From contig JAIVFJ010000077.1 of the NCBI GenBank assembly GCA_025765615.1, forward strand, positions 1 to 64,000: 64,000 nucleotides of DNA, given 5' to 3'. This stretch comes from Zopfochytrium polystomum (Eukaryota > Chytridiomycota > Chytridiomycetes > Chytridiales > Chytridiaceae). Every line of letters starts with the position of its first letter. Positions within the stretch are counted from its first letter, which is position 1. Positions 3,195 to 55,936 of the stretch are shown in pieces. The translations under genes and the position numbers were made by a program. The notes beneath the pieces are model-generated. The model saw nothing but the letters and a program-made list of their open reading frames with translations, was not told where the DNA came from and searched no databases.

Positions 3195-3234
3195 GATGGC
3201 AGAGAGTAGTAGGAGAGGGTGAAGTGAATTATGA

Positions 3235-3585
3235 TGTCAGGAACATGGCAGGACAGGACAAGGCAGACAAGGAACTGAGAGGAGTGATGATTGTATTGGA
3301 AACAATAATTCACTTGAGGGTTGGGACGTCCCCCATCCCCCTTTTATACCTTTTGAGAGTCTTCCTTGTCAAGACTCAAAGAAAGTTCCAGAAAGAGCAA
3401 TTAGTAATACAATGATACCAATGATACCAATGACAACAAGACAAGTCAGGAAAGCAAAGAAGGTTCCGGAAGGTTCCACAAGGTTCCATGAAGGAATGTT
3501 CTAGAAGGTTCCAGAAGGTTCCAGAAGGTTCCATGAAGGAATGTTCTAGAAGGTTCCAGAGGTTTCCAGAGGGTGATTCATAACA
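3235..3585 (-). repeat. Family A LTR (5' LTR of copy 1)
   Basis: 351-bp LTR. The predicted self-primer site lies just inside it at about 3222-3232 and is the same as in the 22.8 kb copy. Confidence 0.9.
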
Positions 3586-4506
3586 CTGGCACTACCAAAA
3601 AACACCTCCCAATGAACAGCTCTTCTTGTGCTAGCACCTGATCAACACTGCTGGAGTTGGAGATTGTGATCACAATGTCAGTGAGGACGCCTGGGCTGTC
3701 AACTTCCAGGCTTCTAACGATCAGTTTGAGATTTTCTCCTCCTTTTGCAACTTTAGACAGCACAAATCACCCAAGTTGATTTTCCGGGTCGCAGTCTGAG
3801 TGGCACTTGGCTTTATCGCCCTCCCCCACTGACACCCACAAAAGTGCCCACCAATGGCTGTATGGGATTGGAACTTTTGAAGGGACGGGCAAACTTTCTG
3901 CTCGCCCTTGAGCGCCTCAGAGTATGTGCATTCCATCCCATCCCCAACGAATTTCAACAAATACCGCCACTAATCTCACCATTGCAACTTTCCCAACACT
4001 TACTGTCGATGTTGCGGCTGTGATCAGGTTGGACCTTGGAGGTTAATGTTTTGTTTCTGCATTTCCACTTTTTTTTTTGTTTGCTTATTTTTTTCAATTT
4101 TTTTGGATTGGATCAAAGTTTGAATTTTCATCCAGCTGGTGGCTGGCGCCACTTCCCACATCAAAACCACTGCCCTAAACAGCCTGAGCCTTCAATGCCA
4201 ACACACTTGGCTTCACTGAAACAGCTTGTCCATAAGCCATTCACCTCACCTCATGCTGGCATCCCAGCCCACACCAAAGACGAGCACCTCTGTCACTGAT
4301 GACTGGGACCTAATTGAGAAGATGAAGGTGGTTGACGTTGATTGCTGGCCGTGGCATGGCGCATTGGGGGTGGCCTGACTCTACTGGCAGTCACCAATTC
4401 CTCAAGGCTCTGCTAGCTTCCCTTGATCCCATCAAGGCCTGCGCTTGATAACAAACTTGTGTTTCCACCACAACAAGTCTGCAGCAAAGTACCGCGCAAA
4501 GCTGAT
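3586..4506. other. Intergenic DNA, no gene supported
   Basis: Only short open frames are present, with no recognised domain. There is a T-rich tract at about 4068-4107. Confidence 0.4.
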
Positions 4507-22806: not shown

Positions 22807-22834
22807 TGTTATGAATCACCCTCTGGAAACCTCT

Positions 22835-22934
22835 GGAACCTTCTAGAACATTCCTTCATGGAACCTTCTGGAACCTTCTGGAACCTTCTAGAACATTCCT
22901 TCATGGAACCTTGTGGAACCTTCTGGAACCTTCT
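22835..22934 (+). promoter_or_regulatory. Phased heat-shock-element array in LTR U3
   Basis: One hundred bases divide into 20 in-register pentamers, 17 of which fit the alternating nGAAn/nTTCn heat-shock element. Units at 22835-22854 are gGAAc cTTCt aGAAc aTTCc. Eight uninterrupted units run 22860-22899, and further units run 22905-22934 with one deviant (cTTgt). Two ttcat pentamers act as in-phase spacers. HSF binds three or more contiguous inverted units, so the LTR is a plausible heat- or stress-responsive promoter. The array ends about 110 bp before the TATA box. Confidence 0.75.
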
Positions 22935-23043
22935 TTGCTTTCCTGACTTGTCTTGTTGTCATTGGTATCATTGGTATCATTGCATTACTAATTGCTCTTT
23001 CTGGAACTTTCTTGGAGTCTTGACAAGGAACACTCTCAAAAGG

Positions 23044-23089
23044 TATAAAAGGGGGATGGGGGACCTGTCCCATCCCTCAAGTGAATTAT
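23044..23089 (+). promoter_or_regulatory. LTR TATA box and predicted mRNA start
   Basis: TATAAAA at 23044-23050. AAGTGAATTAT at 23079-23089 lies at normal TATA-to-start spacing and is complementary to the primer site at 23162-23172, which argues that transcription begins at about 23079. Confidence 0.6.
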
Positions 23090-23161
23090 TGTTTCCAATA
23101 CAATCATCACTCCTCTCAGTCCCTTGTCTGCCTTGTCCTGTCCTGCCATGTTCCTGACATC

Positions 23162-26405: not shown

Positions 26406-26758
26406 TGTTATGAATCACCCTCTGGAAACCTCTGGAACCTTCTAGAACATTCCTTCATGGAACCTTCTGGAACCTTCTGGAACCTTCTAGAACATTCCTT
26501 CATGGAACCTTGTGGAACCTTCTGGAACCTTCTTTGCTTTCCTGACTTGTCTTGTTGTCATTGGTATCATTGGTATCATTGCATTACTAATTGCTCTTTC
26601 TGGAACTTTCTTGGAGTCTTGACAAGGAACACTCTCAAAAGGTATAAAAGGGGGATGGGGGACCTGTCCCATCCCTCAAGTGAATTATTGTTTCCAATAC
26701 AATCATCACTCCTCTCAGTCCCTTGTCTGCCTTGTCCTGTCCTGCCATGTTCCTGACA
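26406..26758 (+). repeat. Family A 3' LTR
   Basis: Same length and, by eye, same sequence as the 5' LTR; followed by the AATAC duplicate. Confidence 0.95.
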
Positions 26759-27619
26759 AATACGAGCACGGAAGTACTCTCTCGGTTACACACCGACCTT
26801 GTCCAGATGCCGGTCCAGGGCAGAAGGAGAGAGAAGTTCTGGCAGATAGTCGTCAATGAATTCTCTCGATGGATAGACATAGAATTCTTGACGTCGAAGA
26901 AGCAAGCACCTGAGCGCTTCAAGAGAACTGTGGAACGCTTTGATCTACAACACAGTAAAAAGGTAGCCGCTATCTGCTGTGACGGTGGTGAACTTTACTC
27001 AGTGAACTCCTTCAAAGTTTGGGCATCCCAGCGAAGTCCACCCATCATGCTTGAACCCAGTCCTCCTTACACCAAGGAATTCAATGGACTGGTAGAACGG
27101 CAGATTGGAATAATAAAGGAGATGTCAGCGTGCATGTTACTGGAGTCGCGATTTCTGCACTCATTTCTACCCTACACCCTGCCCTATGCGGCATACATCA
27201 AAAACAGAGTTCTTCACAAAACCACAAAAGCTATACCCTACCAACGCTGGTTTGGCTCATTTCCTACACTCAACCATCTACGCACATTTGGTTGTTTGGC
27301 GATATTCAAAATGCCTAAGGAAAAACGCCTTATGACCTCATGGAAGGGAATGCTGGGAATCTTTTTGGGTTTCAAAGGAAATAGACTTGCAGTCCTCTAT
27401 GACCTTGCAGGGCATATGATCACTGAGCAGTACCATGTGAAATTCCATGAAGATATCTTCCCAGGGTTAGACTGCAAATCAAAGACCTGTTTAAAGATTT
27501 GGGTTCCATCCGAGCAACTTCCAGTCCCCGACACCTCCCCTTTTCTTGATTCCAGACGTCTTTCCTTCTCCTGTGGCTTCTGTTTATGCACTGCTCTCCT
27601 CACCGTAGCCTGGGTGTAG
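26759..27619 (+). pseudogene. Ty1/copia integrase core fragment (3' part)
   Basis: Continues the copia frame: HTDLVQM, then FWQIVVNEFSRW with a CCDGGELY segment at the second catalytic Asp position, then NGLVERQIGIIKEM with the catalytic Glu, followed by FLPYTLPYAAYIKNR and the C-terminal FGCLAIFKMP...LGIFLGFKG. The first core Asp is in HTDL. The frame is open for nearly 290 codons, then ends without RT, so this copia copy is 3'-truncated. Interruption by family A is recent relative to the copia insertion. Confidence 0.85.
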
Positions 27620-36117: not shown

Positions 36118-37021
36118 GGCTGTGTCAGTGCGATCACTCAACCAACAGGCTTTATTGCGTCACACTCATACTCACGTATCTCACTCTCACATCAATAGGA
36201 CCGAGACAGGCACTATGTGAGGACAACAGGCTGTTGAGCCTGTGACCTCAAATAAATTAAGTGTACACCCACTTTTTAACTGGTAATTGTGAGGATAACC
36301 ACCCTGTCTTGACCTGTGGTTTGCTGGCAAAATGTGACTAGGCTTGGATTCCTACTCTCTTATTATTTATTGGGTTTACATACACCCTCCAACTGGCTCC
36401 ATATGTCTGCCTCTGAGCTCTACTTATTATTATTATTTATTTTTGCTGAAGTTGTAGACAGAAGCTGATACAAGGCTCCCTTGCTCAGTGGTTAGAGTGC
36501 TCCCTTCAATTGGGAAGGTGCCAAGTTTGAGACAGCTAGTTGATAGACTGAGCAGAAATGCAAAGTCCTGCTATGCCTGGATAATGGCCCATCACTTTTG
36601 GAAATGACTTAGGACTGAAACACTTGTGTGTGAGAAGAGCTAAGTCCTGATGGACAGAGTTAACAATATGATGACAGAGCTCTACCACCTGCTACCATGA
36701 TGTAATGCCTCATAAAAGGGGTATGAGATCACAGGGTTTTTCCTTATCTTTTCATTGGTAACTTTTACTTATTTTTTTTTCAATTAGTAATTTATCCTGT
36801 TTTTCCTGTTTTTCCTGTTTTCTCTTTTATTTATTCCTTGTTGTCTCTGTCTCACACATCATAACAACAGCCTAATGGCATACTCACTGGTGTAGAAGGA
36901 ATGTGGTGTCTCAACCTCCCTCCTGCTCTCAACTCTAAGTCATCAGTGAACCATCTTGCCTCTGTTGGTGATGGAGTTCTACCTATGATGGAGTTTCTGG
37001 CAGCAAGTGTAGCTTGTGCAA
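36118..37021. other. AT-rich DNA with tRNA-like box A/B pair
   Basis: At 36477-36540 ttgctcagtggttagag resembles a tRNA A box and ccaagtttgagac a weak B box, 40 nt apart. The arms do not fold as a tRNA. A SINE head or decayed tRNA is possible. No coding region. Confidence 0.35.
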
Positions 37022-37689: not shown

Positions 37690-38520
37690 TGAGTAATGCT
37701 GCTTTGTTCACTGGGTCAGCAGGTGGCTCTGCGAAGTCTTCAGAGTCACAGTTGCAAGCTCCATAAACTTCAGGTAGTCGAACAGACCAGTTATGTCTGT
37801 GGAGGTGCTGTCATCAATCTTGCCCATATAATTTTGACTTGGAAAAGCTGTATTTGTTGTTCTTGAAACTTTGGTTTAGTATATGGACAGCAGAACAGAA
37901 ACTTAGTTTTATGTCAATCTGATTGCGCATGTCAATAGGGGTGAGTTTCTGTGTTTGCTGTAGGGATGCGTAGTCCGTCTCGAATTTCTGCTGGAAGTTC
38001 ACAATTTGTTCTTTCTCTCCAATGCAAAGCTTCTTGAACTCATCAATAATGTCAGGAACAGGGCAGGACAGGACAAGGCAGACAAGGAACTGAGAGGAGT
38101 GATGATTGTAGTGGAAACAATAATTCACTTGAGGGATGGGACAGGTCCCCCATCCCCCTTTTATACCTTTTGAGAATCTTCCTTGTCAAGACTCAAAGAA
38201 AGTTCCAGAAAGAGCAATTAGTAATACAATGATACCAATGATACCAATGACAACAAGACAAGTCAGGAAAGCAAAGAAGGTCCCAGAAGGTTCCACAAGG
38301 TTCCATGAAGGAATGTTCTAGAAGGTTCCAGAACGTTCCAGAAGGTTCCATGAAGGAATGTTCTAGAAGGTTCCGGAGGTTTCCAGAGGGTGATTCATAA
38401 CAAATAAGGTTCGTGACCTGTGCAGGGTTGACATGGCTGACTTTGTGCTTGAGTTTGGCAAGGGCCTCAAAGACAAAGTAGATGCTGCTTATCTTTTGCT
38501 TGAGGTTTTAGTTCTGGGAG
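37690..38520 (-). pseudogene. Unidentified gag-like frame split by a solo LTR
   Basis: The minus-strand frame IYFVFEALAKLKHKV...NPAQVTNL lies on one side of a family A solo LTR and IDEFKKLCIGEKEQIVNFQQ...LTPIDMRNQID on the other. Removing the LTR and one AATAA duplicate gives one continuous frame. The charged, coiled look (FQQKFETDYASLQQTQ) resembles retrotransposon Gag, but no signature motif is present. Another frameshift lies near 37816. Confidence 0.4.
38050..38402 (-). mobile_element. Family A solo LTR
   Basis: A 353-bp LTR with perfect AATAA duplications at 38045-38049 and 38403-38407. Solo state implies LTR-LTR recombination after insertion. Confidence 0.95.
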
Positions 38521-41334: not shown

Positions 41335-41533
41335 CCTGGGGCTGAAAACGTTTCGAGTCCAGTAAGACTTGAAAACAAAAATGTGACTGGATCAGCTGTA
41401 GCTTGACTCAACTCAATTGATGTGCAATGATTGATCAAAGAGTAGATCAGGCAATCCCAGTCTCTCCATCCATCTTGAACAGACATCCACCATTGTTCTG
41501 CGTATTCTGGGATGGTCTCACAATGGTCTCGTA
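41335..41533. repeat. Local repeat I, copy 1
   Basis: About 195 bp repeated at 42920-43110 (aagacttgaaaacaaaaatg, ccaccattgttctgcgtat). Confidence 0.85.
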
Positions 41534-41924
41534 AGGTCTGCCTGTGCGACCTCGCTCCATATCAATGTAGCCAAAGATTGAGTTTGATTGACTTCGTAAC
41601 AAGCATCCTCTGCCTATGTAGGTCATGTTGAATATGGGGCCAGTTGGGCACTGCAATGCGGCTCTGTGAACGCACCTGACGGAAAGTGACAATCCAACCC
41701 GTTTAGAGGTCCAGTGACTGCCAACTTCACATTGGAGCATCTCACAGTGTATCTTCAGCCGATGAAGTAATCCAACCAAAATATTTGAAAAATAAAACTA
41801 ACAGGATGGCAAAACTTGTCTCACCCGTTGCCCCTCCATTTCTCGCCATGATATGTGGATATTTCTCTAATTGACCAGCCGAAAAAATTCCTATTACCAA
41901 CTGCCGTCAGGTTAGACGCTACAG
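41534..41924. other. Unassigned; 57-bp match to 51418-51475
   Basis: The phrase ttgggcactgcaatgcggct and what follows recur at 51418. A 110-codon minus-strand frame (41447-41779) has no recognised domain. Confidence 0.35.
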
Positions 41925-42570
41925 CAGGCAGGACGCAATGACCGTTGGCGAGATTATGGTGCCGACGGCGCCGGCGGGCCTGAAGAAGGGCTGACGTAAT
42001 ACACGAAGCTGCCCAAAACTGGCTGCTATTTCACCTATCTTCGCTTGTCTTCGGGAATCGGCAGGAAGATGGCGCATGACATGTCGACCGAAAAAGGAAG
42101 TCTTCAAGCAACGCAGACGGTACTTTTCAAACAGCTGGCTGTGGCACCACCTCCAATGCGCAGCTCTCTTCACGCACACCGACTTCAACACTTGCGAAGG
42201 CCGCCCATCGCCTCCTTTGCCCAATAGTTCTTTTCGGCGTCTCAAAGGCTTGGCCGATCTTCTACTGTGGGACTTTGGAAATGTCAAATCTGTCCGTGCG
42301 CTATCCTCTGTTCCAGATCAGCCTCCGTGGTTGGGTCGCATACTTGCCCCCCCCCCCCCCCCCCCCCCGCAGAATGTGCGCATGGAAATGAACCACTTTG
42401 CTGAGCCTTGGTTTGAGCAAGCCTTCTCTGAAAGCCGCAGAACCAGCAGCATCACAAACGCTCATTCTGTCGATCGATTAGATGAGTACGCCCCAGCCCT
42501 AGATCCACCTTGAACCAACCAGCCAAGACGCTCCAATGAAAATGTTTCTGCCACTTGCGTCCATCCTGGA
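41925..42570 (+). repeat. Duplicate of the Cys-rich gene 3' end and downstream DNA
   Basis: Matches 52932-53580. It begins inside the C-terminal codons of the cysteine-rich gene (DAMTVGEIM...APAGLKKG-stop) and runs about 580 bp past the stop. A run of 22 C at 42347-42368 is present only in this copy. From 42571 to 42871 nothing is recognised. Confidence 0.85.
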
Positions 42571-42871
42571 ATATACTGCCCCCTTTGCATGGAGAAAGTG
42601 ACTGTGGGGGACAGGCATGGACTCATGGAGGGCCTGTCTCTCACCCATTTTAGTATGCTGCTGGTTGCAGAGATGGGTGAAAAACGCTTTCCCAAATTTG
42701 CAAGACATCTTCTCAACAGCAAGGAGCAATCAGAGGATGCCCTTACACAGCTGTATTTGCCTGCTTCTGCTCTTTGCATTGATACGTAACACGCCTGGCT
42801 ACCAGGCCTACAGCAGGAGCTGCAAGAGATTTTAATAAGGGGGGTCTAAAAGTCAAACTGCACTACCTGCT

Positions 42872-42919
42872 TGTTATGAATCACCCTCTGAAACCTCTGG
42901 AATCTTCTAGAACATTCCT
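42872..42919 (+). repeat. Family A LTR 5'-end fragment
   Basis: TGTTATGAATCACC and the first pentamers, then cut at about 42919. Confidence 0.85.
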
Positions 42920-43110
42920 TCAAAACTTTTCGATTCCAGTAAGACTTGAAAACAAAAATGTGACTGGATCAGCTGTAGTTTGACTCAACTCAAATGATGT
43001 GCAATGATTGATCAAAGAGAAGATCAGGCAATCCCAGTCTCTCCCTCCATCTTGAACAGACTTCCACCATTGTTCTGCGTATCTTGGATGGCCTCACAAT
43101 GGTCTCCTAA
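42920..43110. repeat. Local repeat I, copy 2
   Basis: Matches 41335-41533 and runs up to the family A LTR at 43111. Confidence 0.85.
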
Positions 43111-44402
43111 TGTCAGTAACAGGGCAGGACAGGACAAGGCAGACAAGGGACTGAGAGGAGTGATGATTGTATTGGAAACAATAATTCACTTGAGGGATGG
43201 GACAGGTCCCCCATCCCCCTTTTATACCTTTTGAGAATCTTCCTTGTCAAGACTCAAAGAAAGTTCCAGAAAGAGCAATTAGTAATACAATGATACCAAT
43301 GATACCAATGACAACAAGACAAGTCAGGAAAGCAAAGAAGGTCCCAGAAGGTTCCACAAGGTTCCATGAAGGGTTGCTCTAGAAGGTTCCAGAACGTTCC
43401 AGAAGGTTCCATGAAGGAATGTTCTAGAAGGTTCCAGAGGTTTCCAGAGGGTGATTCATAACATCATCTCCCCCTTTTAGGCCTCTTCTGCAACTTGGTG
43501 GGGTACCTGGTCTTGAACTTGAGCAGAAGGTCTTGGCAGTGAGTGAGGTTTGACTCAGGTTCCCAGGTGTTGTCAGCATCTGAGTAACCTTTCCACTTAA
43601 CAAGGAACTTGAGTGTCCTTCCAAACCACTTGGCATCCAAGATTTGTTCAACCTCAAATTCCTCTTCACCTTCTACCTCAACTGGAGGAGGAGGAGGAAC
43701 AACTCTGCCTGGAATAGAATTGGCCACAAACTTTTCCAAAAGGCTGACATGGAAAACTGGGTGGATCTTCATGGATGCAGGGAGATCCAGCTTGAAGGTG
43801 ACTGGATTGATTTGCTCCAAGATCTTGAAAGGACCCAACTTGAGGTTGTCTAGCTTGGGACTTGGTCTTTTGGTCTGCAAGTTCTTCCTCAGAAGCCAAA
43901 CTTGCTGACCCACAGCAAGGTCATGGTCCATTCTGTGAGTGTTGGCGAATCTTGAGGCATCTTCTTGGGCTTGCTTCAGGGTGGAGTCCAGGAAGGTGCT
44001 GATGATCTTGAGCTTATGCAAGTGTGAAGCCACAGCAGGAGCTTGGACATTGGATAGGGTCTCTTGTCCCAGAAGATCTCCTCTTGGATTGAAGCCATAG
44101 GTTGCAAAGAAAGGAGATAGCTGGGTGCTTGAGTGGAGAGAATTGTTGAGAGCAAATTCTGCCAGTGGAAGGAGGGTGGGCCAATCATCCTGTTGATAGC
44201 TGACATAGCACCTCAAATACTGCTCCAGAGTCTGGTTTGTTCTTTCTGTTTGTCCATCAGTCTGAGGGTGATAAGCAGTTGACAGTTGAGACTTGATTCC
44301 AAGGGCTGCTGTGAGTGCTTTCCAAAATTGAGATCTGAACTGAGGTCCTCTGTCACTGATGATTGACTGAGGCAGCCCATGGAGCCTGAATATGTGCTGC
44401 AA
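43111..44402 (-). mobile_element. Ty3 family A, copy 3 (3' part only)
   Basis: The 353-bp LTR (43111-43463) is preceded on the minus strand by 312 codons of Pol running from HIFRLHGLPQSIISDRGPQF (second integrase Asp) through the catalytic Glu region to an intact chromodomain. At 44402 it is cut and joined to the plus-strand endonuclease-bearing element. The first integrase Asp and everything upstream are missing locally; RT-RNase H of the same family and strand lies at 49774-50825. Confidence 0.9.
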
Positions 44403-47400
44403 TTCAAAGAATCAACTGTGCATGCTGTACCAGTTGGCTCACTGATGGAGAGCCAAATACATTTCCCTGGTTCTATATTTACAGCTGCCGATCTCCATAA
44501 TGAGGATGGCAGTCCTAAGATCTTTAAGGTCCAGTTATTAAATCTGCGCGACAAACCAGTGTCTCTAAAGAAAGGAACTTGTGTCGCCCATTTCCTTGAT
44601 GTACCGCCTGATCCAGGATCTTACATCATTGACGTACCTGATACGCTCCATGAAGAGCCGGAACAACTACTGACTATGGTGAATATTGCCCATTGTCACA
44701 ACCCAGCAGATACAGAATCTTTCCTCTCTGCCCTTCATGATGTAGACAAATCCTGTACATCTTTCTATCCCCGCTTCCCTGATGCAGGAAGAGGATATAC
44801 GACACAAGGCTCAGTGGAGACCTTCCCCGATTCTATTGTACCGCCCTCTTTTGAAGAAATGGCTGAGATAGAATGTCTTTTTGAATCAGATTCAGAAGAA
44901 ACACTTGTAAATGAGGACAATATTGAAGCTGTAGCTACTCCTGTAGCAGATATGCCTCGCCGTGATACAACACAAGGAGATAAATTGGAATATCTCCCAC
45001 CTGAGTCCCAGATGACCGATGATGAGATCTGGGCCAAACTGAAAACAGAGCATATTGCTAAGACTTTTGGTGACGACGTTGTAGCTCGCCTCAAAAAATT
45101 AGTATATCGCTATATCGATATCTTCCGACCTGGTAAAATTACTGGAAAGAAGTTTCCACCGCCGCACGCTATCAAACTCCAAGAAGGTGCGCACATTCCT
45201 GCAAGTAACCCTTACCCTGAGGGCCTTGGCAGAACTGAAGTGTTACGCGAACATATTCAAAAAATGAAGGAAGCTAACGTGATTCGTGAAAGCAAATCCC
45301 CGTTTGCTGCTCCTGTTGTTTTAGCAAAGAAACCTGATGGCTCATGGCGTTTCTGTGCTGACTTTCGTAAAGTTAACAAAATCACCATCAAAGACCGCTA
45401 TCCGCTCCCGCGAATAGAGGAGGTTTTTGATGCAATTAGTAATAAATATGTGTTCAGCGCTATGGATTTACTTAGTGGATTCTGGCAGATTCCTGTTGCT
45501 GAAGAAGACCGTCATAAGACTGCCTTCATTTCCTCACAAGGACTTCACGAGTTCAACGTTATGCCGTTTGGACTTTGTAACTGCCCTCCGACCTTTCAGA
45601 GAGCAATGGATCACGTCCTTGCTGGAATTAAGTGGTTATATTGTATGGTTTATGTCGACGATGTTGTAGTTTACTCAAACTCCATTGACGAACATTTCGT
45701 ACACCTTGAAAGTGTTTTCTCCCGCTTCAGCGAATACAATCTTAAGCTGAAACCCTCTAAGTGCAACCTCTTTCACCTGGACCTCCCATTCCTTGGACAC
45801 CGTATCTCCAAGGAAGGACTGCGTAAAGACCCCTCAAAGACTGTTAGCCTGGACGAGTACCCGACACCACGGACGCTTAACCAGCTGCAGCAGTTTCTTG
45901 GATTTGCGAATTACTTTAAGCGTTTTATCCAGAATTTCTCTGAGAAAGCTAAACCGCTGTATAATCTCCTTTCTGTGAAAGAACCCTTTTGTTTGGGCGC
46001 CCTTTCAGGAAGAAGCCTGCGACATGAGCTGAAACGAGATATCATTCTTGTGACTCCTGGTCCCAATGATAAGTTGCTCATTGAGTGTGATGCCTCTGGT
46101 TATGCCCTTGGTGCTGCACTCTATGTTGTGGACCCTGATGACCCACATAACCGTGAGAAACGGAAACCCGTTGGATTTGCATCAAGAGTTCTAAGTGACG
46201 CAGAAACACGCTATTGGACTCACGACCGTGAAGGACTTGCCATAGTATGGGCTGTCGACACGTTTGAACGATACATCTTCAACCGCCCTGTGATTATTGA
46301 AACTGATCACGCACCTCTCATCCAGCTGTTCAAGAAAGGACCTCTGACTGGCCGTTTTGCACGATGGGCCTATGCGCTTTCTGACTATGACATCGAACTT
46401 GTTCATGTGTCAGGAAAACAGAACGTCGTTGCTGATGCTCTCTCATGTGTTTTTCTTGGACCTGCTGCCTGTAAAGAGAAACGCTTAGTTTTCACTGATG
46501 AAGCTGCAACTCAGACAGATACCATTGAACCTGTGGTTCCCTCTGATAATGAAGACACAGCGAAAAAAGAGGTAGCCCCTGCTACCGACAATGAATTGAA
46601 CCCTGAGACCAACATGTTGGACTCAGGAGATGAAGCTAAACCATTGCGCGAAGTATCTCTCTTTGACCCCACAATTCGGAAAGATATACTCCGCCACCAT
46701 CTCCTACGACGGCATAAGCCTGCTGTAGTAGAAGTTTACGAACGGCCTAAATGGGTGCCTACCTTTAACATTTCCTCCTGGAATGTTAATGGCTTGTATT
46801 CCTGGCTTAGAGTCGCTCATAAATCTGGTGTCGCCTTTGCACAGCAAACGGACCCTGCGAAACGGTTTGAGGACTTCCTCAACTCCCAATCTTCCTGTAT
46901 TGTTTGTTTGCAAGAAACCCGTCTTGGCCTAAAACGCCAGAAACTTGTTGACAAGTTATGCCAGATTAAAGGATGGAAGTGCTTGCTTTGCAATCCTCGA
47001 ACTGGGAATAATGGCGTCGCCACCTTTTACCGTTCTGAATTGAACGGTAGAGAATTCACCTTCTTAGGGGACCCTCAACACACCAAAGAAGGACGTGTTG
47101 TTGTTCTACTTGTCGGACCCTTTGCAATCCTCAATGTTTATGCTCCAAGCAGCTTCGCGGATGAGACTGGATCCCGACAACCCTACAAGATGAATTTCCT
47201 TGAAGAAATTATGCAAAACTGTTCAGCCCTCCGACTGCAAGGATTTACCATCATTGTGGCTGGAGACTTGAACATTGCGCATACTGACCTTGATGTCGAC
47301 CACTCTCTTCGCCTTCGCCTGAAGAGAGAGCATGCCACTTTCCCTGGCCTCTTAGAGAGCGAGAGACAGTGGTTTGACAGATTCTTAGCATCGGGCTATG

Positions 47401-48767
47401 TCGACGCGTTTCGACGTACATTCCCTTCATCCCGTGGACTTACTTGGACTATGAAGTCCTCCTGTTCGGGTGAATGGATCCCCCTGCTACGAGTAGATTA
47501 TTTCCTTGTGAGTAACAACATTGACCCTTCTAGATATAGTGTCCAAATTCACACAGACCATCCCTCATTTGATGGACTTGCTATAAGCGATCATTATCGC
47601 ATCGAGCTGCTTACAAACCTCAGCAATCTTGTGCCTACTGTTCCGACAGAACAGGAGATTACTGACGCCATCTCACCGCTTGATATGACAATTGATGTGC
47701 CTGGTGAAGATAGTGTACCAGCTGTTGACACAGACGCAACATTGGAAGCCCTACATGAGAGCTTCCCATCTGAGGTTCAAGTTTTAGATAACCCACAAGC
47801 TCTGAGTTATGTCCAGAACAAAGACCCTTACTTCGGACCTATCCTTCGCTTTAGAAGAGATGGTACTCTCCCTGAAGGTATTTCTCCTCGTACCATGACT
47901 CAGAGAGCAGCCATGATGGTGATACGACGCAGAGTTCTCCATGCTGTGAGAGACTCATACTCTTTCATGATGAAGAGGGCCCCGCTACGACTTGCCATAT
48001 GTGTCCCTGACAATTTAAGGAGAGATGTCCTTAAACTTGTCCACAATGACCTCCTCTCTGGACACCTTGGTGCCAAGAAAGTATTTGATAATCTTGCTGA
48101 ACGTTTCTACTGGCCAACAATGGGTAGAGACCTCCGCAACCATATTGCAAGTTGCGAAACTTGCCAGAAAAGCAAGCCAGTGCCCTCTCGATCTGGAGTT
48201 CTGCACCCCGTCCCCATCGGATTGTATCCCTGGGAACGTGTAGCTGTTGACTTTGCAGGTCCTTTCAAAAAGACTCCCGAAGGTTACCACTACATTATGA
48301 TTGTGATAGATTACTTCACCCGTTGGGTTGAAGCAGTCCCCGTCACAGACATCACCGCAGAAACCACCGCACGCGCTTTAGTAGAGCAAGTGTTCTGCAG
48401 ACATGGGGTTCCTGTTTTCCTTCACTCTGACAGAGGTCAGCCGTTTCCCAGCCACTTGCTTTCTGCCCTATGTAAAGCACTTGGAACCAAGAAAACCTTC
48501 TCGTCGCCACGATGGCCTCGAGCAAATGGTGCTGTAGAACGCTCCATTAAAAGTTTGAAGACTATGATTAGGTCTTTCATTGACCAGACGACCCACAATG
48601 ACTGGCCGTCTGTTCTCCCATATGTCCTATTTGCATATAGGACCCACGTTCACCCGCTAACCGGAGAAACGCCGTTTTTCCTGATGCACCGACGAGACTG
48701 TCGACTCCCTATTGACATGTTTTCTGGAGTAGACAGAGATGATCCCCGATGGAAGGATGGAGGGTAA
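44379..48767 (+). CDS. Ty3-type Pol with AP-endonuclease-like domain (RT-RNaseH-EEP-IN)
   Basis: One uninterrupted frame of 1462 codons (numbering from 44379; element sequence proper starts about 44403). A post-protease segment comes first (VQLLNLRDKPVSLKKGT). Reverse transcriptase (about 290-470) shows CADFRKVNKITIKDRYPLPR, FSAMDLLSGFWQIP, MPFGLCNCPPTFQ and YVDD at 425-428. RNase H (about 565-690) shows ECDASGYALGA, REGLAIVWAV, ETDHAPL and NVVADAL. An acidic linker leads to a complete exonuclease III/APE1-like domain (about 793-1080). Integrase follows (about 1190-1455): H2C2 (GHLGAKKVF...CETCQ), VDFAGP, HSDRGQPF, NGAVERS. Gag and protease active site are missing at the 5' junction, and the frame ends soon after the integrase core without a GPF or chromodomain module, so the copy is truncated at both ends. 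Absence of stops over 4.3 kb suggests recent activity. Confidence 0.92.
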   Translation: MEPEYVLQFKESTVHAVPVGSLMESQIHFPGSIFTAADLHNEDGSPKIFKVQLLNLRDKPVSLKKGTCVAHFLDVPPDPGSYIIDVPDTLHEEPEQLLTMVNIAHCHNPADTESFLSALHDVDKSCTSFYPRFPDAGRGYTTQGSVETFPDSIVPPSFEEMAEIECLFESDSEETLVNEDNIEAVATPVADMPRRDTTQGDKLEYLPPESQMTDDEIWAKLKTEHIAKTFGDDVVARLKKLVYRYIDIFRPGKITGKKFPPPHAIKLQEGAHIPASNPYPEGLGRTEVLREHIQKMKEANVIRESKSPFAAPVVLAKKPDGSWRFCADFRKVNKITIKDRYPLPRIEEVFDAISNKYVFSAMDLLSGFWQIPVAEEDRHKTAFISSQGLHEFNVMPFGLCNCPPTFQRAMDHVLAGIKWLYCMVYVDDVVVYSNSIDEHFVHLESVFSRFSEYNLKLKPSKCNLFHLDLPFLGHRISKEGLRKDPSKTVSLDEYPTPRTLNQLQQFLGFANYFKRFIQNFSEKAKPLYNLLSVKEPFCLGALSGRSLRHELKRDIILVTPGPNDKLLIECDASGYALGAALYVVDPDDPHNREKRKPVGFASRVLSDAETRYWTHDREGLAIVWAVDTFERYIFNRPVIIETDHAPLIQLFKKGPLTGRFARWAYALSDYDIELVHVSGKQNVVADALSCVFLGPAACKEKRLVFTDEAATQTDTIEPVVPSDNEDTAKKEVAPATDNELNPETNMLDSGDEAKPLREVSLFDPTIRKDILRHHLLRRHKPAVVEVYERPKWVPTFNISSWNVNGLYSWLRVAHKSGVAFAQQTDPAKRFEDFLNSQSSCIVCLQETRLGLKRQKLVDKLCQIKGWKCLLCNPRTGNNGVATFYRSELNGREFTFLGDPQHTKEGRVVVLLVGPFAILNVYAPSSFADETGSRQPYKMNFLEEIMQNCSALRLQGFTIIVAGDLNIAHTDLDVDHSLRLRLKREHATFPGLLESERQWFDRFLASGYVDAFRRTFPSSRGLTWTMKSSCSGEWIPLLRVDYFLVSNNIDPSRYSVQIHTDHPSFDGLAISDHYRIELLTNLSNLVPTVPTEQEITDAISPLDMTIDVPGEDSVPAVDTDATLEALHESFPSEVQVLDNPQALSYVQNKDPYFGPILRFRRDGTLPEGISPRTMTQRAAMMVIRRRVLHAVRDSYSFMMKRAPLRLAICVPDNLRRDVLKLVHNDLLSGHLGAKKVFDNLAERFYWPTMGRDLRNHIASCETCQKSKPVPSRSGVLHPVPIGLYPWERVAVDFAGPFKKTPEGYHYIMIVIDYFTRWVEAVPVTDITAETTARALVEQVFCRHGVPVFLHSDRGQPFPSHLLSALCKALGTKKTFSSPRWPRANGAVERSIKSLKTMIRSFIDQTTHNDWPSVLPYVLFAYRTHVHPLTGETPFFLMHRRDCRLPIDMFSGVDRDDPRWKDGG
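46755..47618 (+). other. EEP (APE1/ExoIII-like) domain inside Ty3 Pol
   Basis: All class II AP endonuclease motifs appear in order: SSWNVNGL (Asn802, metal/active site), CLQETR (Glu846, metal ligand), NVYAPSSF (the Tyr171 position of APE1), AGDLNIAHTDLD (Asp963 and Asn965), ESERQWFDRFLASGYVDAFR (matching the ERQGF...DSFR block of APE1), RVDYFLVS (Asp1040) and ISDHYRIE (Asp1071-His1072). The ERxxF...D.FR block favours a cellular ExoIII/APE1 origin over the L1-type retrotransposon endonuclease. All catalytic residues are intact, so activity on abasic sites or 3' ends is plausible. Confidence 0.9.
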
Positions 48768-49773
48768 ATCTGTGGTGGTGCCTCTAGGTTCCTGTCAATA
48801 CATCTAGTCAAATCCAGGTCTCTCAAGGTGATATGAATGAGCTGGCTGGTCGGGTACTGCTGCAGAAATGGTCTCTCAGGTATGCCCCCTCCTCCCTGGT
48901 TGTTGGCTCCTGTGGCCTCTGGTGGGCCTGGTCTTCACTGGGTTCAGACCCTCTTTCTCTCAGATTAATGCCTGTGATGTCATGGTGCCACATTTGGGTG
49001 AGGGAGTGGGTGTTAACCTTCCTTGCTTCTAAGATAGGGAATTCCTCTGGCTTGGTGAAGCGGATGTCTGTGTCCTAGGAGGATGAAGTAAGAAGAGTCC
49101 CACTGTCTCCCACCCCTGTGTGCCCCCTCCTTGGATTGAGTTGGAACTTCTCCCTGGAGTGAGACAAGTTGTGTCTGGTTCTGTTAGGTGGAAAACAGTT
49201 CTGATTTAATTCAACAGACACCTCTGCACACTAACTGTTCCTTGTGTTTGCCCTCTGTGTCCAACCCCCTCCAACTTAGGGCTTGTCTTTGACAGAGAGG
49301 GAGCCTTGCTCCATGGTGGTGGCTCCAACAGACCAGGGTCTGGCCACTTTTTTTTTCCACTCTCTTGTCTTCTTCAGTTGGATTGGAGTGCTGCACTTAG
49401 TGCCGCTCCCTGGAGCTTGCTGCATCTTGCACCTCCAGCATTGTTACTGGATTTCCCGGTCCCCTTTGGCTTTGGCTTTTGCCTCCCATTGGGCCCACTC
49501 TGTGTCATGGACCAGAGAACCCTGCACATTCTTTGCTAGTGTGCCACCTTTTCACAGTTGTCTTTGGTCTGAGTGTGAGAGTCTTCTCTTTGTGTGTAAT
49601 AAGAGAGTTTCTTTGTGTTTCTTGGGCTTCTTAAGACTCCAAAAACATTGTCCTGTCTAGTGACCCCTAGACATCTCCTTTTTGCCCTTTTTCACTTTTC
49701 AGGATTGGTATTTAGGCCATTGCTCTATTTGCCACCCATAGCCCAGGGTGAGGATTTAGAGAGCACAGTCTCA
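48768..49773. other. Unassigned 1-kb segment between two retroelement pieces
   Basis: T/G/C-rich sequence with open frames up to 125 codons but no domain. It could be the 3' untranslated end or LTR of the endonuclease-bearing element, or unrelated DNA; no LTR termini were found. Confidence 0.35.
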
Positions 49774-50825
49774 CAAAGGTGTGTCTTGGATGGTGGGGTG
49801 AAACCATCTCCCCCTTCAGGTGCAAGGTCTGTTCTTCTTGACAGGGCATCAGCCACAGTGTTAAGGTGGCCAGGAGAATAGCACAGCTTAAAGTCATACT
49901 CAGAGAGCAGTTCAGCCCACCTGGCATGCCTCTGCTTGAGCAACCTCCTTGCCCTGAAGAAGGTGAGGTTCTTGTGATCAGAATAGACAGAGATGCCTTT
50001 AGAACCAGCCAAGTAGTATCTCCAGAATTTGAATGCTTCCACAATTGCAAGCAACTCCTTGGCATGGACTGTGTAGTTACACTCAGCACTTTTCAGCTTC
50101 CTGGAGTAATATGCCACTAGATGCAGAGGAGCAGAGGGGTCCTGAGAGCTTGGCTGGGACAGAACAGCACCGAGGGCATAGTCTGAGGCATCAGTTTCCA
50201 AGGTGAACGGAAGCAAGGGATCCACATGCTTAAGGAGTGGTGCACTTGTGGTTGCTGTCTTAAGAGCTTGCCAGGCTTGCTCTGCTGCTGGGGTCCATTC
50301 AAACTTGGTGGTCTTTTTGGTGAGATCAGTGAGAGGCTTGGCTATGGCAGAATAGTTGGCAATGAAGGTTCTGTAGAAGTTGCAAAACCCAAGGAAGCTT
50401 TGAACATCCTTGATGGAATTTGGAGCCTTCCATTCAAGAATAGTTTGGATCTTGTCTGGTGCCATGGAGATCCCTTTGTCAGACACAATGAACCCCAAAA
50501 ACTCAATGGAGGTCTTGTGGAACTCACACTTCTCCAGCTTTGCATAGAGGTGATGCTGTCTGAGTCTCTCCAAGACAGTCTTGACATGTCCCATATGGCT
50601 TGCAGTGTCAGACGAAAATACCAGGATATCATCCAGGTAGACAATGACAAAAAGGTCCAGAATATCCCTGAAGATGTCATTCATCATGCCTTGGAAAATA
50701 GCTGGAGCATTGGTAAGTCCAAAGAGCATGACCAAGTACTCAAAGTGACCGTATTTGCATCTGAAGGCAGTCTTCCATTGATCCTGGGGCTTAATTCTGA
50801 CCAAATTGTAGGCACCTCTGGTCAC
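49774..50825 (-). pseudogene. Family A RT-RNase H fragment
   Basis: The minus strand encodes GAYNLVRIKPQDQWKTAFR, MLFGLTNAPAIFQGMMND, VIVYLDDILVFSSD (YLDD box), FLGFIVSDKGI, FLGFCNFYRTFI, then RNase H with LETDASDYALGA, AKELLAIVEAFKFWRYY, YSDHKNLTF and [22 protein letters not shown]. The last segment runs into the linker (TPPSKTHL) found after the deletion point in copies 1 and 2, which identifies the family. RT palm motifs before GAYN are missing (cut at about 50822). It is the only family A RT in the window. Confidence 0.88.
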
Positions 50826-51640
50826 CTGACTTTTGTCTGAACCAATGTTGAACCAGGGCAGCTCACAGCAGCTCCAGGTCAGCTGACTTTTGTCTCTGTG
50901 TGCAACACCCTTTGTCTGCTGTGCAGAGACCTCTGTCCAGGCCTCTGGACACCCACTGGTTGAGTTGAAATGCCCCTGATGATTTCAAATCATTTTCTCT
51001 CTGTGGGGAGACCAATTGCTTGCACACAGGGCTCCACACAGAGCTTGGTTGATTTGAAATGGTCTGAATATTTCAAATCACCGTCCCTCTGTGAGAAGGG
51101 GTTTACAACACCTCCCCAGAGCAAAGTCCTGTCTGAAGCAGTTTGCAACTTGTTCAGATAGGCAAAACAGGAAAACTGGTTAACCTCTCTGGAGGAGTAT
51201 AACTTGGGCAGAGTTTTCTTACTGAAAAAAAATACTCTCACTCCAATTTGCCAGTCCCTGTCTAAAACAAGCTCTCTTTACCCACTTGCCCTTGGTCGCT
51301 TGATACACTCACTCTCGTGTACAAGTCGTCGATTCAAACCTCTGTTATATCCTTTCTTTCTTTCTACCTCAACCCTTCCACCTTCTTGTGACGCCGCATT
51401 CTACACTGCAACTTCAACATTGGGCACTGCAATGCGGCTCTGTGAACGCACCTGATGGAAAGTGACAATCCAACCTGCGCTTGGAGCGATCACTTCGTCG
51501 CAAAGTCTTGGTCTAAGCCGCTTGGGCGGTAGAGGCCATCTCAGGCCAAGAGAAGAAAGAATGAAAATTGTACGAAAAGCCGCGGCACAAGAACCGTTCA
51601 TTCTGCGATCAATCAAACGCTGCTGAGCTTGATATTCCAG
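50826..51640. other. Unassigned repeat-like DNA
   Basis: Contains two related phrases (gatttcaaatcattttctctctgtg and atttcaaatcaccgtccctctgtg) about 90 bp apart. 51418-51475 matches 41643-41700. No gene. Confidence 0.35.
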
Positions 51641-51771
51641 GACGTCGTTGCCGAATTCTTAGTCGCATTGTGCTGCGCCGCGTGCAACGCTGACTGCAGC
51701 GGACTATGTCGCAGGTGTCGCGGCTGCTGCGTGGGCTGCTGCGACTGCGAGCTCCTCCGGTGCTAGTCGCA
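51640..51771 (+). pseudogene. Degenerate relative of the Cys-rich protein
   Basis: The frame reads FLVALCCAACNADCSGLCRR then CRGCCVGCCDCELLRC-stop. This aligns with LVGLCCVCCDCDCSGLCDGC of the gene at 52506. No start codon is assigned; the frame is short and stops early. It is probably a decayed tandem copy. Confidence 0.5.
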
Positions 51772-52442
51772 CAATTGTGCGACCGATTGTTTGCGCGTTC
51801 CGTTGCTCCTGACCTCCGTCGCTCCTCGGCCTTTTCATTTTTTGGGCGTTGGCGTCCTTTCTGGTGCCAAAACATCAATAAAGTGTTCTCGACAACTGCT
51901 TAACTAACTGCGCGCATGACAACAGGTTCTGCTTCGATCGGGTGAATCGCAGCGCTAGAGTGGAGGAACCCCCTTAAACGCGATCCCGTTGCGGAAGGGT
52001 CCTATCGATTTAGGGGCCTCCGTGGGTGTTCTCTGGCGAGGTCATGCACGTAATAACCTGAGTACCGGTTTTGTTCTCGTTGGCAGCGGTGTGTGTGTGT
52101 GTTTGCGTGTGTGCAAAGAGCAAGGAGAGAGAGAAGTGGTGGCGTCACAGTGCTGTGTGTGAAGCCACTCTGCGTCGGGTCGGGCAGTGCGACGCGCGCA
52201 GTCATGGTGGGTTGGGGTTGGTGGTGGCTGGAGGGTCGGTCTGTCTGCCACCCATCCGTTTGTTCGTTTGTGGCAGTGCCTCCTGCCCAGCTCAGGCGCT
52301 TTCACCGCCGCCACTGCCGCCTTCAAAACCCAAGCTGCTCCCGCCCGCGCACCACCAACTCACCACCCCGCCAGGCGCTTTGCTTCCATCCCAACCGACG
52401 GAGCCGAACCCGGCCCCCACCCCAGCAGCAGCTTCAAGAACA

Positions 52443-52474
<32 letters not shown>

Positions 52475-52505
52475 GCATACACCACCTGCTCCGCCCGCAC
52501 CACGC

Positions 52506-53009
52506 ATGCCGGCCCCGCACGGCCTCGTCGCAATCATCCTCGCGCCCTGCGCGCTTCTCCTCGGCCTGCTGGGCTGCTGCTGCGAGAGCTGCGCGGGCGA
52601 CTGCTTGGTCGGACTGTGCTGCGTGTGCTGTGACTGCGACTGCAGCGGGCTGTGCGACGGGTGCTGCGACTGCGACTGCATAGCGCTGTGCGACGGCGGG
52701 TGCTGCGACTGCTGCGCGGGCAGCTGCGACGGGGGGGCGTGCAGCTGCGGGCCGCCGCAGCACTGCTCGACGCACAGTGTCGCGGCGGAATGTTTGCGCG
52801 GGGTGTGCGAAGGACTTCTCAAAGGGCTGTGCGATTGTAGGTGCAACTTTTGCTGCGACGGTTGCCCGCGGCGGCGGCGGCACGCTGAAGATGAAGAGTG
52901 GTCGAGAGATGCTGACGGCGGCGGCCGCGACGCGTACGGCGGGCAGGACGCAATGGCCGTTGGCGAGATTATGATGCTGACGGCGCCGGCGGGGCTGAAG
53001 AAGGGCTGA
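52506..53009 (+). CDS. Cysteine-rich repeat protein, unknown function
   Basis: 167 codons from the ATG at 52506. The hydrophobic N-terminus (GLVAIILAPCALLLGLLG) could be a signal or membrane anchor. Residues about 35-82 form four near-repeats of 12 residues (VGLCCVCCDCDC, SGLCDGCCDCDC, IALCDGGCCDCC, and a diverged fourth). More CxC/CC pairs follow (CDCRCNFCCDGC) and then a polar tail (RRRRHAEDEEWSRDADGGGR). Cysteine pairs at this density suggest metal binding or a disulphide-rich surface protein; no named family is recognised. CA repeats lie 30-70 bp upstream. The last about 25 codons and 570 bp downstream are duplicated at 41925-42570. The minus strand is also open, but with low-complexity Gln/Ser/His. 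Confidence 0.5.
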   Translation: MPAPHGLVAIILAPCALLLGLLGCCCESCAGDCLVGLCCVCCDCDCSGLCDGCCDCDCIALCDGGCCDCCAGSCDGGACSCGPPQHCSTHSVAAECLRGVCEGLLKGLCDCRCNFCCDGCPRRRRHAEDEEWSRDADGGGRDAYGGQDAMAVGEIMMLTAPAGLKKG

Positions 53010-54019: not shown

Positions 54020-54116
54020 GCCTGGTTAGCTCAGTTTGGTAGAGCGTGAGACTTTTAGGGCTTCGTGACCTATGAAAGGCATCTTAAGGTCGTGGGTTCG
54101 ACCCCCACATCGGGCG
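54020..54116 (+). tRNA. tRNA-Lys (UUU) with intron
   Basis: Acceptor GCCTGGT/ATCGGGC (one T-G pair), anticodon UUU, 23-nt intron. Confidence 0.88.
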
Positions 54117-54984: not shown

Positions 54985-55081
54985 GCCCGGTTAGCTCAGT
55001 TTGGTAGAGCGTGAGACTTTTAAGGTTGCGATGGCCGTGAAAGACATCTTAAGGTCGTGGGTTCGACCCCCACATCGGGCG
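54985..55081 (+). tRNA. tRNA-Lys (UUU) with intron
   Basis: Acceptor GCCCGGT/ATCGGGC, anticodon UUU, 23-nt intron. Confidence 0.92.
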
Positions 55082-55936
55082 CCACGGCGTGTTTCCAGGG
55101 CCTGCTTTGTTTCGCGACATCCTGTCTCGTCATTTGGCCATTATTTGCCATCATCATCATTAGCTTGAGTCCACAGGAGTTCCTCTTGGCAGTGCTTCGG
55201 TATTCGTGGCTGCTATTCAGGCCTCCCTTGGTCCCGAATATCTGACAATTAAGAAAACCTTCATTTCGATGAGGTTTTTCTCTCGTCTGCCACATCCCTT
55301 TCGGCGCAGGGGTCGCTTATCGCCAGATTCCTGAACGTGTCTGTTCGGCGCCCATCCGATCCAGATGGAAATTAGCAAAATTGGAAATTGTGCTCAGTGC
55401 CAGACGCAAATCAGGGGCCGGCGGCGGAGCTGCAGAATCCGAAAAGGTTGGGATACCGCTCTTCGCTCTGAAATGCCTTTTGTTTGCCGCAGTTGCTTGG
55501 TTGTTTTGACGCTGCAAGATCCACACCATACACACACCACGTGCGTAAGACTGCCACACGTCTCCACGCAGGTGCTGCCTCCCAAATTCCAACCTGAGCC
55601 CTTTTGCAGGAAATCGAAGTAGTTCAATGGGTTTTCGAAACCAAAGTTCTTTGGGCAAGGTCGATTTTCAGTGAAACAGACAAACGTCCTTGTCAAGAAA
55701 ACAATTTTTTGGCAAAAAAAAAGTAACAAATTGTGAAATCGATTGTGCATTGGCCAATTTTGGCAGGCAGAGGAGTGGGGAAAGTGGGGGGGAAACTTCC
55801 CCGCCGGGGGGAGGACCCATCAAACAACCCAGCACGAAGACCCAGAAATGGAAGGAGGGAAAGACCCGACCCGAAAGCAACAGAAAAAAAAAGAAAGAAA
55901 AAAAAAAAAAAGAAAAGAAAACGACCCCCCTGCCCA
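55082..55936. other. Intergenic downstream of ZZ gene
   Basis: No gene supported. An A-rich tract lies at about 55885-55920. Open frames here lack domains. Confidence 0.45.

Follow-up and report, generated by a model that had tools for sequence, protein, structure and literature searches.

An exonuclease III-type domain between RNase H and integrase in chromodomain Ty3/gypsy retrotransposons of the chytrid Zopfochytrium polystomum

We describe here a family of Ty3/gypsy retrotransposons with long terminal repeats (LTRs) in which a nuclease domain of the EEP superfamily, of the exonuclease III (ExoIII)/xth type, lies inside the Pol frame. The family is represented in a 64,000-nucleotide stretch of Zopfochytrium polystomum DNA (assembly GCA_025765615.1, contig JAIVFJ010000077.1, positions 1 to 64,000; hereafter the window), and was followed through the window's own assembly of 80.2 Mb in 761 contigs. 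Its members are chromodomain elements with a single frame, of 3604-3741 residues in open copies, ordered (Gag)-(protease)-reverse transcriptase (RT)-RNase H (RH)-EEP-integrase (IN)-chromodomain, and the EEP domain is a fixed and selected part of Pol. The order from RT to chromodomain is kept between copies, complete copies are bounded by LTRs and target-site duplications (TSDs), the catalytic residues of the domain are retained under purifying selection, and the domain recurs in other elements. The best explanation of the whole, to which we assign a probability of about 0.5, is that EEP would serve as a Mg2+-dependent nuclease of Pol that processes or repairs the element's own cDNA.

The window copy was recognized in a forward-strand open frame of 1462 residues (44379-48767), of which 44397-48747 is element sequence proper. 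A first-pass annotation, made from the letters alone, had read this frame as RT with a YVDD motif, RNase H, an EEP domain and an H2C2/DDE integrase without interruption, and profile searches agree. Pfam places RVT_1 with YVDD at 45327-45806 (residues 317-476, E 4.3e-33), RT_RNaseH at 46062-46388 (residues 562-670, 5.8e-28), the zinc-binding domain Integrase_H2C2 at 48003-48179 (residues 1209-1267, 1.3e-20) and the integrase catalytic core rve at 48237-48512 (residues 1287-1378, 4.1e-12), all on the forward strand. Between them, at 46767-47606, stands the EEP domain with a full catalytic residue set, matched by Exo_endo_phos (residues 800-1072, 1.3e-16; 61.5 bits against a cut-off of 24.5) and by the NCBIfam model TIGR00633 for xth (135.9 bits against a cut-off of 99.05). 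No dUTPase was matched by Pfam in this frame at E 0.1, nor in pieces of the element copies on contigs C61 and C251.

The arrangement is widespread in the genome. The EEP region has 105 matches, and EEP identity across the fused copies, which lie on many contigs, runs from 36 to 99%. Five copies including that of the window are 97-100% alike (family A), while a second family (B), whose EEP shares about 39% identity with that of family A, has open frames of up to 3741 residues. The open frames measure 3604 residues on C251, 3723 on C442 and 3741 on both C61 and C40. Among 622 candidates 104 RT-RH matches were scored, 35 of which belong to the window lineage (at least 64% identity) and the other 69 to a different Ty3 family at 37%. 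The first-pass annotation had asked whether the contiguity of RH, EEP and IN would fail in other copies; instead, an EEP lies 95-437 bp downstream in 22 of the 22 lineage matches that extend to the end of RNase H, and within 2.7 kb in 10 of the 13 shorter pieces. For the three RT matches without an EEP, inspection by eye found none near by among the remaining EEP places. These are counts of matches and not of copies, three interrupted copies being counted twice among the 35 and once among the 22, and the comparison of adjacency covered 35 of the 104 RT rows (all at least 64% identity) and 50 of the 105 EEP places. As a separate observation, the 69 listed matches of the 37% family have nearly equal scores and mostly 1255-residue frames, apparently the product of a recent burst.

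Relatives were also found outside this genome. A search of the RT-to-IN part of the window frame against about 5.8 billion proteins, as the first-pass annotation had proposed, gave 129 hits at E 1e-100, and among the best 120, which were listed, three carry Exo_endo_phos. One, P0006 (43% identity), reads RT-RH-EEP and stops before the integrase; another, P0007 (39%), begins after RT and reads RH-EEP-H2C2-rve with a chromodomain at 23.8 bits, under the cut-off. The third, P0108, is a Ty3-type polyprotein of 2269 residues from another lineage, with the EEP between an N-terminal region and the protease. A search for EEP domains within polyproteins of 804-2558 residues returned five proteins, none of them Ty3, an absence that is weak since P0006 and P0007 were missed as well; no relative turned up in viral contigs, whether these were scanned with the EEP or with a 7-row alignment. 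Chance is excluded, since many other copies show the same domain order and database proteins show part of it. The nested and rearranged state of the window copy might suggest a chimera in which assembly or rearrangement had joined a Ty3 element to a LINE or a host gene, but this is refuted by the other copies with the same order: the fusion is found on many contigs over the whole range of EEP identity and in database proteins, and the domain is xth-type, unlike the one LINE EEP compared (21% identical). We regard the probability of such a chimera as negligible.

One copy of each family (C61 for B, C251 for A) was searched piecewise with Pfam, and both showed RT, RH, EEP, H2C2, rve and a chromodomain; a piece border split the EEP in C61. 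The chromodomain follows the integrase and scores 33.6 bits in B, against a cut-off of 25.1, and 20.1 bits, under the cut-off, in A. A weak protease match was obtained in B only (14.7 against 24.3 bits), where a protease-like motif can also be read by eye, and none in A; a zinc knuckle was matched in A only (19.4 against 20.8 bits). No Gag family was matched by Pfam in the pieces of either copy, and Gag in both families and the protease in A are placed by position alone.

The ends of the elements are those of LTR retrotransposons. All three B copies examined (C61, C40 and C24) are complete LTR elements, with LTRs of about 1.1, 0.9 and 1.4 kb whose pairs are 100, 100 and 99.9% identical, termini running from TGTGAGAT or TATGAGAT to ATCTCATA, a purine-rich tract before the 3' LTR, and 4-bp TSDs of GCCT, CGGT and GGCA, respectively, read from the junctions by eye after moving BLAST ends by 0-2 bases. 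The frames of C61 and C40 are open throughout and that of C24 is broken in RT. Full-length, LTR-bounded relatives, which the first-pass annotation had proposed to look for, are found in the same genome as the window, and the earlier assignment to Ty3-type LTR elements stands on the RT-RH-IN order together with the LTR pairs and TSDs of these three copies. In family A, the 3' LTR is 2191 bp long (C117 111703-113893) and preceded by the tract AAAAAAGAGG; the last 787 bp of its partner LTR were read and are 100% identical. Two family A copies stand head to tail on C117 with a period of 16,107 bp, and since they are read as sharing one LTR, no TSD is visible there. These two elements (C117:97000-118999; L015, L016, L032, L033) are 99.97-100% identical over the 5.9 kb compared, and may be a real tandem or an effect of assembly. 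The site 3' of the LTR is G-rich, and no tRNA primer was identified by a pattern search, which gave 11 matches against 11 in the control.

The near-identical LTRs indicate that the lineage has been active recently. In addition, the integrase keeps H2C2 and rve in the family copies, and together with the LTR ends and TSDs this indicates ordinary integration: the 4-bp duplications point to joints made by integrase, and integration itself would be the work of the DDE enzyme. An EEP domain might instead nick the target in the manner of LINEs, with some copies inserted by target-primed reverse transcription or through an integrase-independent joint. EEP-type domains do so in non-LTR elements, and the window copy is 5'-truncated with the 3' end of an LTR. 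However, complete copies carry two LTRs and 4-bp TSDs, the integrase is present and conserved, and the truncation can be explained by a deletion after nesting, the surrounding element seeming to have lost integrase sequence there too. LTR pairs and TSDs thus disfavour LINE-type integration, and we consider target nicking very improbable.

The complete catalytic set of the AP (apurinic/apyrimidinic) endonuclease type that was reported at first pass holds across the clade. The residues N12, E56, Y131, D173, N175, D250, D281 and H282, corresponding to the N, E, Y, D, N, D, D and H that we take to be the active site of ExoIII, are kept in all eight window-clade sequences examined (four A, two B, P0006 and P0007). 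The comparison of dN/dS across copies, likewise suggested earlier, gave 0.091 for EEP between the window copy and C136 (dN 0.143; dS 1.58, near saturation; 290 codons), beside 0.082 for RT (95 codons), 0.064 for RH and 0.072 for IN in the same pair. Among the five close A copies the EEP ratio ranges from 0.036 to 0.292 over 10 pairs; in comparisons of A with B, dS is saturated. In the IN set two close pairs exceed 1 (2.1 and 1.5), each on one synonymous change, which we read as noise. As judged from these ratios (0.09 at near-saturated dS), the EEP domain is under purifying selection.

We propose that EEP would be made together with RT and integrase and would accompany them into the particle or the pre-integration complex, where the element's own cDNA would be the substrate of its Mg2+-dependent nuclease activity. 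It could incise the cDNA at damaged, abasic or uracil sites, and could clear 3' ends that are blocked or frayed, allowing plus-strand synthesis to be completed and the integrase to receive clean ends. Repair of abasic or uracil-derived lesions and trimming of cDNA 3' ends had been suggested at first pass, and both are plausible. In this role EEP would be a built-in counterpart of the dUTPase of other LTR elements.

The domain is found in further Ty3-like elements of the same genome. An xth profile detected five additional long frames (on C20, C104, C55, C79 and C143), which form two further groups. In group 2, which is divergent, the locus C104:19000-24000 (L044) reads RT-RH-EEP-H2C2-IN in one frame, with rve at 28.2 bits against a cut-off of 32.6, and C20:388200-392200 (L043) has RH-EEP and an integrase core (36.3 bits) in two separate frames. 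Group 3 uses another slot, before RT. Its order was read at C143 alone (C143:45500-54000; L045, L048), where a protease (22.8 against 24.3 bits) is followed, in another frame, by EEP-RT-RH-H2C2; H2C2 scores 50.3 bits, and the integrase core was not found by Pfam, a DDE motif being read by eye. C55:157115 and C79:80794 are also members.

The EEP-bearers were compared in an RT tree of 50 rows (six EEP-bearing, 43 chosen from the 120 listed matches, and the Ty3 element that surrounds the window copy). A, B and P0006 form one clade (100/100) and groups 2 and 3 another (100/100), while P0108 stands alone; groups 2, 3 and P0108 are on long branches. A single clade of all six EEP-bearing RTs is marginal in the approximately unbiased (AU) test (p 0.045), and one of the first five is not rejected (0.138). 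In the EEP tree, support for the window clade is 89/76 with all rows and 100/99 after six were dropped, namely the two longest (LINE_C426 and P0108) and four near-copies. All retro-EEPs group together at 42/28 in the first tree, and the 12 remaining rows do so at 93/90, with a program warning that the long branches of two groups meet at this join, which may be false. The separate EEP and RT trees, suggested at first pass, are compatible with one ancient acquisition and with several.

One could imagine EEP acting on the host side, by degrading competing or host nucleic acid or by countering host defence. That several Ty3-like groups of this genome carry an EEP would be in keeping with a host pressure common to them. 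There are precedents in the captures of DNMT and AlkB, that is, in retrotransposons with DNA methyltransferases (PMC5890265) and orchid Gypsy elements with an RNA demethylase (PMC9289625); here and below, the papers cited are drawn on in excerpt. Against such a role stands the fact that EEP is fused within Pol and has no separate open reading frame (ORF), and we think it unlikely.

Several observations weigh against a cDNA-processing or repair function. The window copy is a truncated, nested and defective relic: compared with C117 it is without its 5' part, and an internal deletion of about 2.9 kb extends from the integrase C-terminus across the chromodomain into the LTR, of which roughly half is gone. 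Also relative to C117, changes of +1 at 45975 and -10 at 46015 put some 14 codons out of frame where RNase H begins. The copy is therefore most likely dead, though its long frame is real. Frames of at least 3604 residues are listed at four places, and many of the remaining copies are broken or fragments. Between A and B, EEP is 39% identical as against 81% for RT and 64% for IN, and this faster divergence is compatible with a relaxed or changing specificity. Moreover, an alignment with 120 database ExoIII-type proteins has 62 columns in which these are conserved to 90% or more; all eight window-clade sequences are identical in 25 of the columns, and at least one departs in each of the other 37. 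Among positions that are 100% conserved in those relatives (alignment numbering), 234 (W) and 246 (G) are lost in eight of eight and 247 (W) in six of eight window-clade EEPs; next to the SDH motif, all eight have also lost 273 (G) and 284 (P). The first three belong to the conserved loop WW..R....GWR, presumably the AP-site contact loop of ExoIII, which is altered in the window clade; groups 2 and 3 retain more of it. Since this presumed recognition loop has diverged, AP specificity cannot be assumed: the specificity of the window-clade EEP for AP sites or uracil may be gone, and we file the domain as ExoIII-like rather than as a proven AP endonuclease, an enzyme that is probably active and whose substrate may have shifted. 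Finally, the EEP of group 3 precedes RT, so that the slot next to the integrase is not essential to the role of EEP.

The same divergence may be read as a sign that the nuclease has been retargeted to a step of LTR replication, such as the removal of RNA primers or the trimming of structured cDNA ends. Side activities of ExoIII include those of an RNase H and of a 3'-phosphatase. The catalytic core is intact while the presumed AP-recognition loop is changed, and RNase H is immediately followed by EEP both in the window family and in group 2. DEDDy exonucleases in rotifer LTR elements provide a precedent (PMC5408684). However, the element already has its own RNase H domain, and in group 3 the EEP lies before RT. 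We hold retargeting to be unlikely, and prefer the processing or repair of cDNA as proposed above.

With respect to origin, the best 120 of 430 free-standing EEP relatives are 29-35% identical to the domain; several are annotated as exodeoxyribonuclease III, and the minority assigned to a named organism are bacterial. Three other proteins (P0003, P0004 and P0005; 943-970 residues) have an N-terminal ExoIII joined to RT of the group-II-intron type and maturase domains. The first-pass annotation had suggested capture of a host AP endonuclease. The genome's own APE1-like gene (L041) is 23% identical to EEP, against 34% for the best free-standing database relative, and groups in the EEP tree with bacterial, plant and group-II-RT ExoIIIs (99/98), apart from the retro-EEPs. 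A single LINE EEP from this genome was compared and is 21% identical; unlike it, the window EEP is of the xth type. From these identities and the placement of L041, an origin from a LINE appears unlikely and one from the host appears unsupported, though not strictly rejected (AU p 0.104 for L041 as sister to the window clade, 0.034 as sister to group 2/3). Our reading is that EEP came from a prokaryote-like source. More tentatively, and with a good deal of doubt, we can picture at least one ancient gain of a prokaryote-like xth domain that was exchanged among, or vertically inherited in, two or more deep Ty3 lineages and changed place between two positions in Pol. ExoIII would then be a standing module of Ty3-like elements in some host lineages, giving them built-in base excision or uridine incision of their own cDNA, the reverse of the strategy of retroviral dUTPase.

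An AP-type endonuclease is generally treated as the mark of non-LTR elements and a DDE integrase as that of LTR elements; here, both are present in one Pol frame of a recently active lineage. An EEP match alone is thus no basis for calling a LINE in annotation. The family resembles other chromodomain Ty3/gypsy elements (chromoviruses) in its RT-RH-IN order, LTRs, short TSD and chromodomain after the integrase, but differs from them in the ExoIII-type domain between RH and IN, the single frame of 3604-3741 residues and the LTRs of 0.9-2.2 kb. With APE-type LINEs it shares an EEP superfamily domain in a retroelement polyprotein; however, LINEs are without LTRs and integrase and carry the EEP before RT, and the one LINE EEP compared is only distantly alike (21%). 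The DNA uridine endonuclease Mth0212 and prokaryotic ExoIII have the same fold and active site, with about 24-30% identity in structural alignments, a likeness that is partly expected because the EEP model was built from 57 rows of which 53 are database ExoIII-type. In contrast to EEP, those are free-standing repair enzymes, and the recognition loop here differs from the conserved ExoIII loop.

Closer in principle are the LTR elements with a dUTPase (rotifer Juno, Vesta and TelKA, basidiomycete elements, and Burro; PMC5408684, PMC6431247) and the retroviruses with one, which likewise carry a nucleotide- or DNA-quality enzyme in Pol. In the excerpts of these papers, the dUTPase is placed between protease and RT in elements, as in those of rotifers, and in various places in retroviruses. 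The rotifer enzyme is thus a precedent for a nucleotide-quality enzyme in Pol (PMC5408684), although here a nuclease takes the place of a dUTPase. Bdelloid LTR elements with a DEDDy exonuclease show that a nuclease can be captured by LTR elements and be common to element types (PMC5408684), but theirs is a separate ORF3 of unrelated fold, whereas the EEP lies inside Pol. The first-pass annotation knew of no described LTR family with this layout, and none of RT-RH-EEP-IN order was found in the literature searched, Repbase, where an entry is possible, being outside that search. The order is absent from the excerpts of PMC6338049, PMC3248453, PMC3441728, PMC2774666, PMC4007536, PMC11244446, PMC5006619, PMC9289625, PMC5890265, PMC6431247, PMC6058741, PMC5055719 and PMC5408684. 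Passages on EEP or APE in PMC3441728, PMC5006619, PMC5890265 and PMC5055719 concern non-LTR elements; PMC6058741 has Exo_endo_phos among Pfam models from a search of retroviral families, under 'other' and as no part of an LTR element in the excerpt; and PMC3248453 describes complex transposons with extra domains acquired through multiple insertions. The combination suggests that the enzyme with which some LTR elements trim or repair DNA is one that they supply themselves. It also makes testable whether cDNA damage and uracil limit LTR retrotransposition, a matter so far approached via dUTPase.

In the window, the copy sits within a minus-strand Ty3 element, parts of which lie on either side: a 356-bp repeat read as an LTR (43108-43463) with the integrase/chromodomain end, together spanning 43108-44396, and RT-RNase H at 49776-50825, both on the minus strand. 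The window frame aligns to other element copies over 44397-48747 only, where it equals C117 105570-109929 at 98.1%. Its first codons derive from the surrounding element, and its tail beyond 48747 is the element's own LTR, joined through the 2.9-kb deletion; the 3' part of this LTR occupies 48748-49775 on the forward strand and equals C117 112867-113893 at 97.7%. A separate fragment of a related LTR lies at 36216-36852 on the forward strand (88.7% to part of the C117 LTR). The 356-bp repeat also occurs at 38047-38402, 22807-23160, 26406-26758, 3234-3587 and 403-758, is interpreted as an LTR belonging to a further chromodomain Ty3 family, and is inserted in the C117 element too. The two flanks of the nest share repeats, at 41345-43087 and 51420-53000, and near 52571-52729 there is a Cys-rich repeat of 36 nt. 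An open frame at 26723-27619, in which an SH3_retrovirus domain and a weak match to rve were found, may belong to a Copia-type element. ARAGORN called 'tRNA-Stop (tta)' twice, about 1 kb apart (54020-54116 and 54985-55084), perhaps misreading intron-bearing tRNAs. Outside the window, the actin of this genome has its best match in 4efh Actin-1 (540.8 bits, a small lead over the 536.6 of the next entry) and a cofilin piece in 7sog actophorin (58.1 against 49.8 bits); both are Acanthamoeba proteins, and by themselves these matches would suggest a probably amoebozoan host. The record NZ_CP050525.1 (1764 bases, labelled Acinetobacter baumannii) is 82.4% identical over 82% to the eukaryotic 18S rRNA of this genome and is probably mislabelled or a contaminant.

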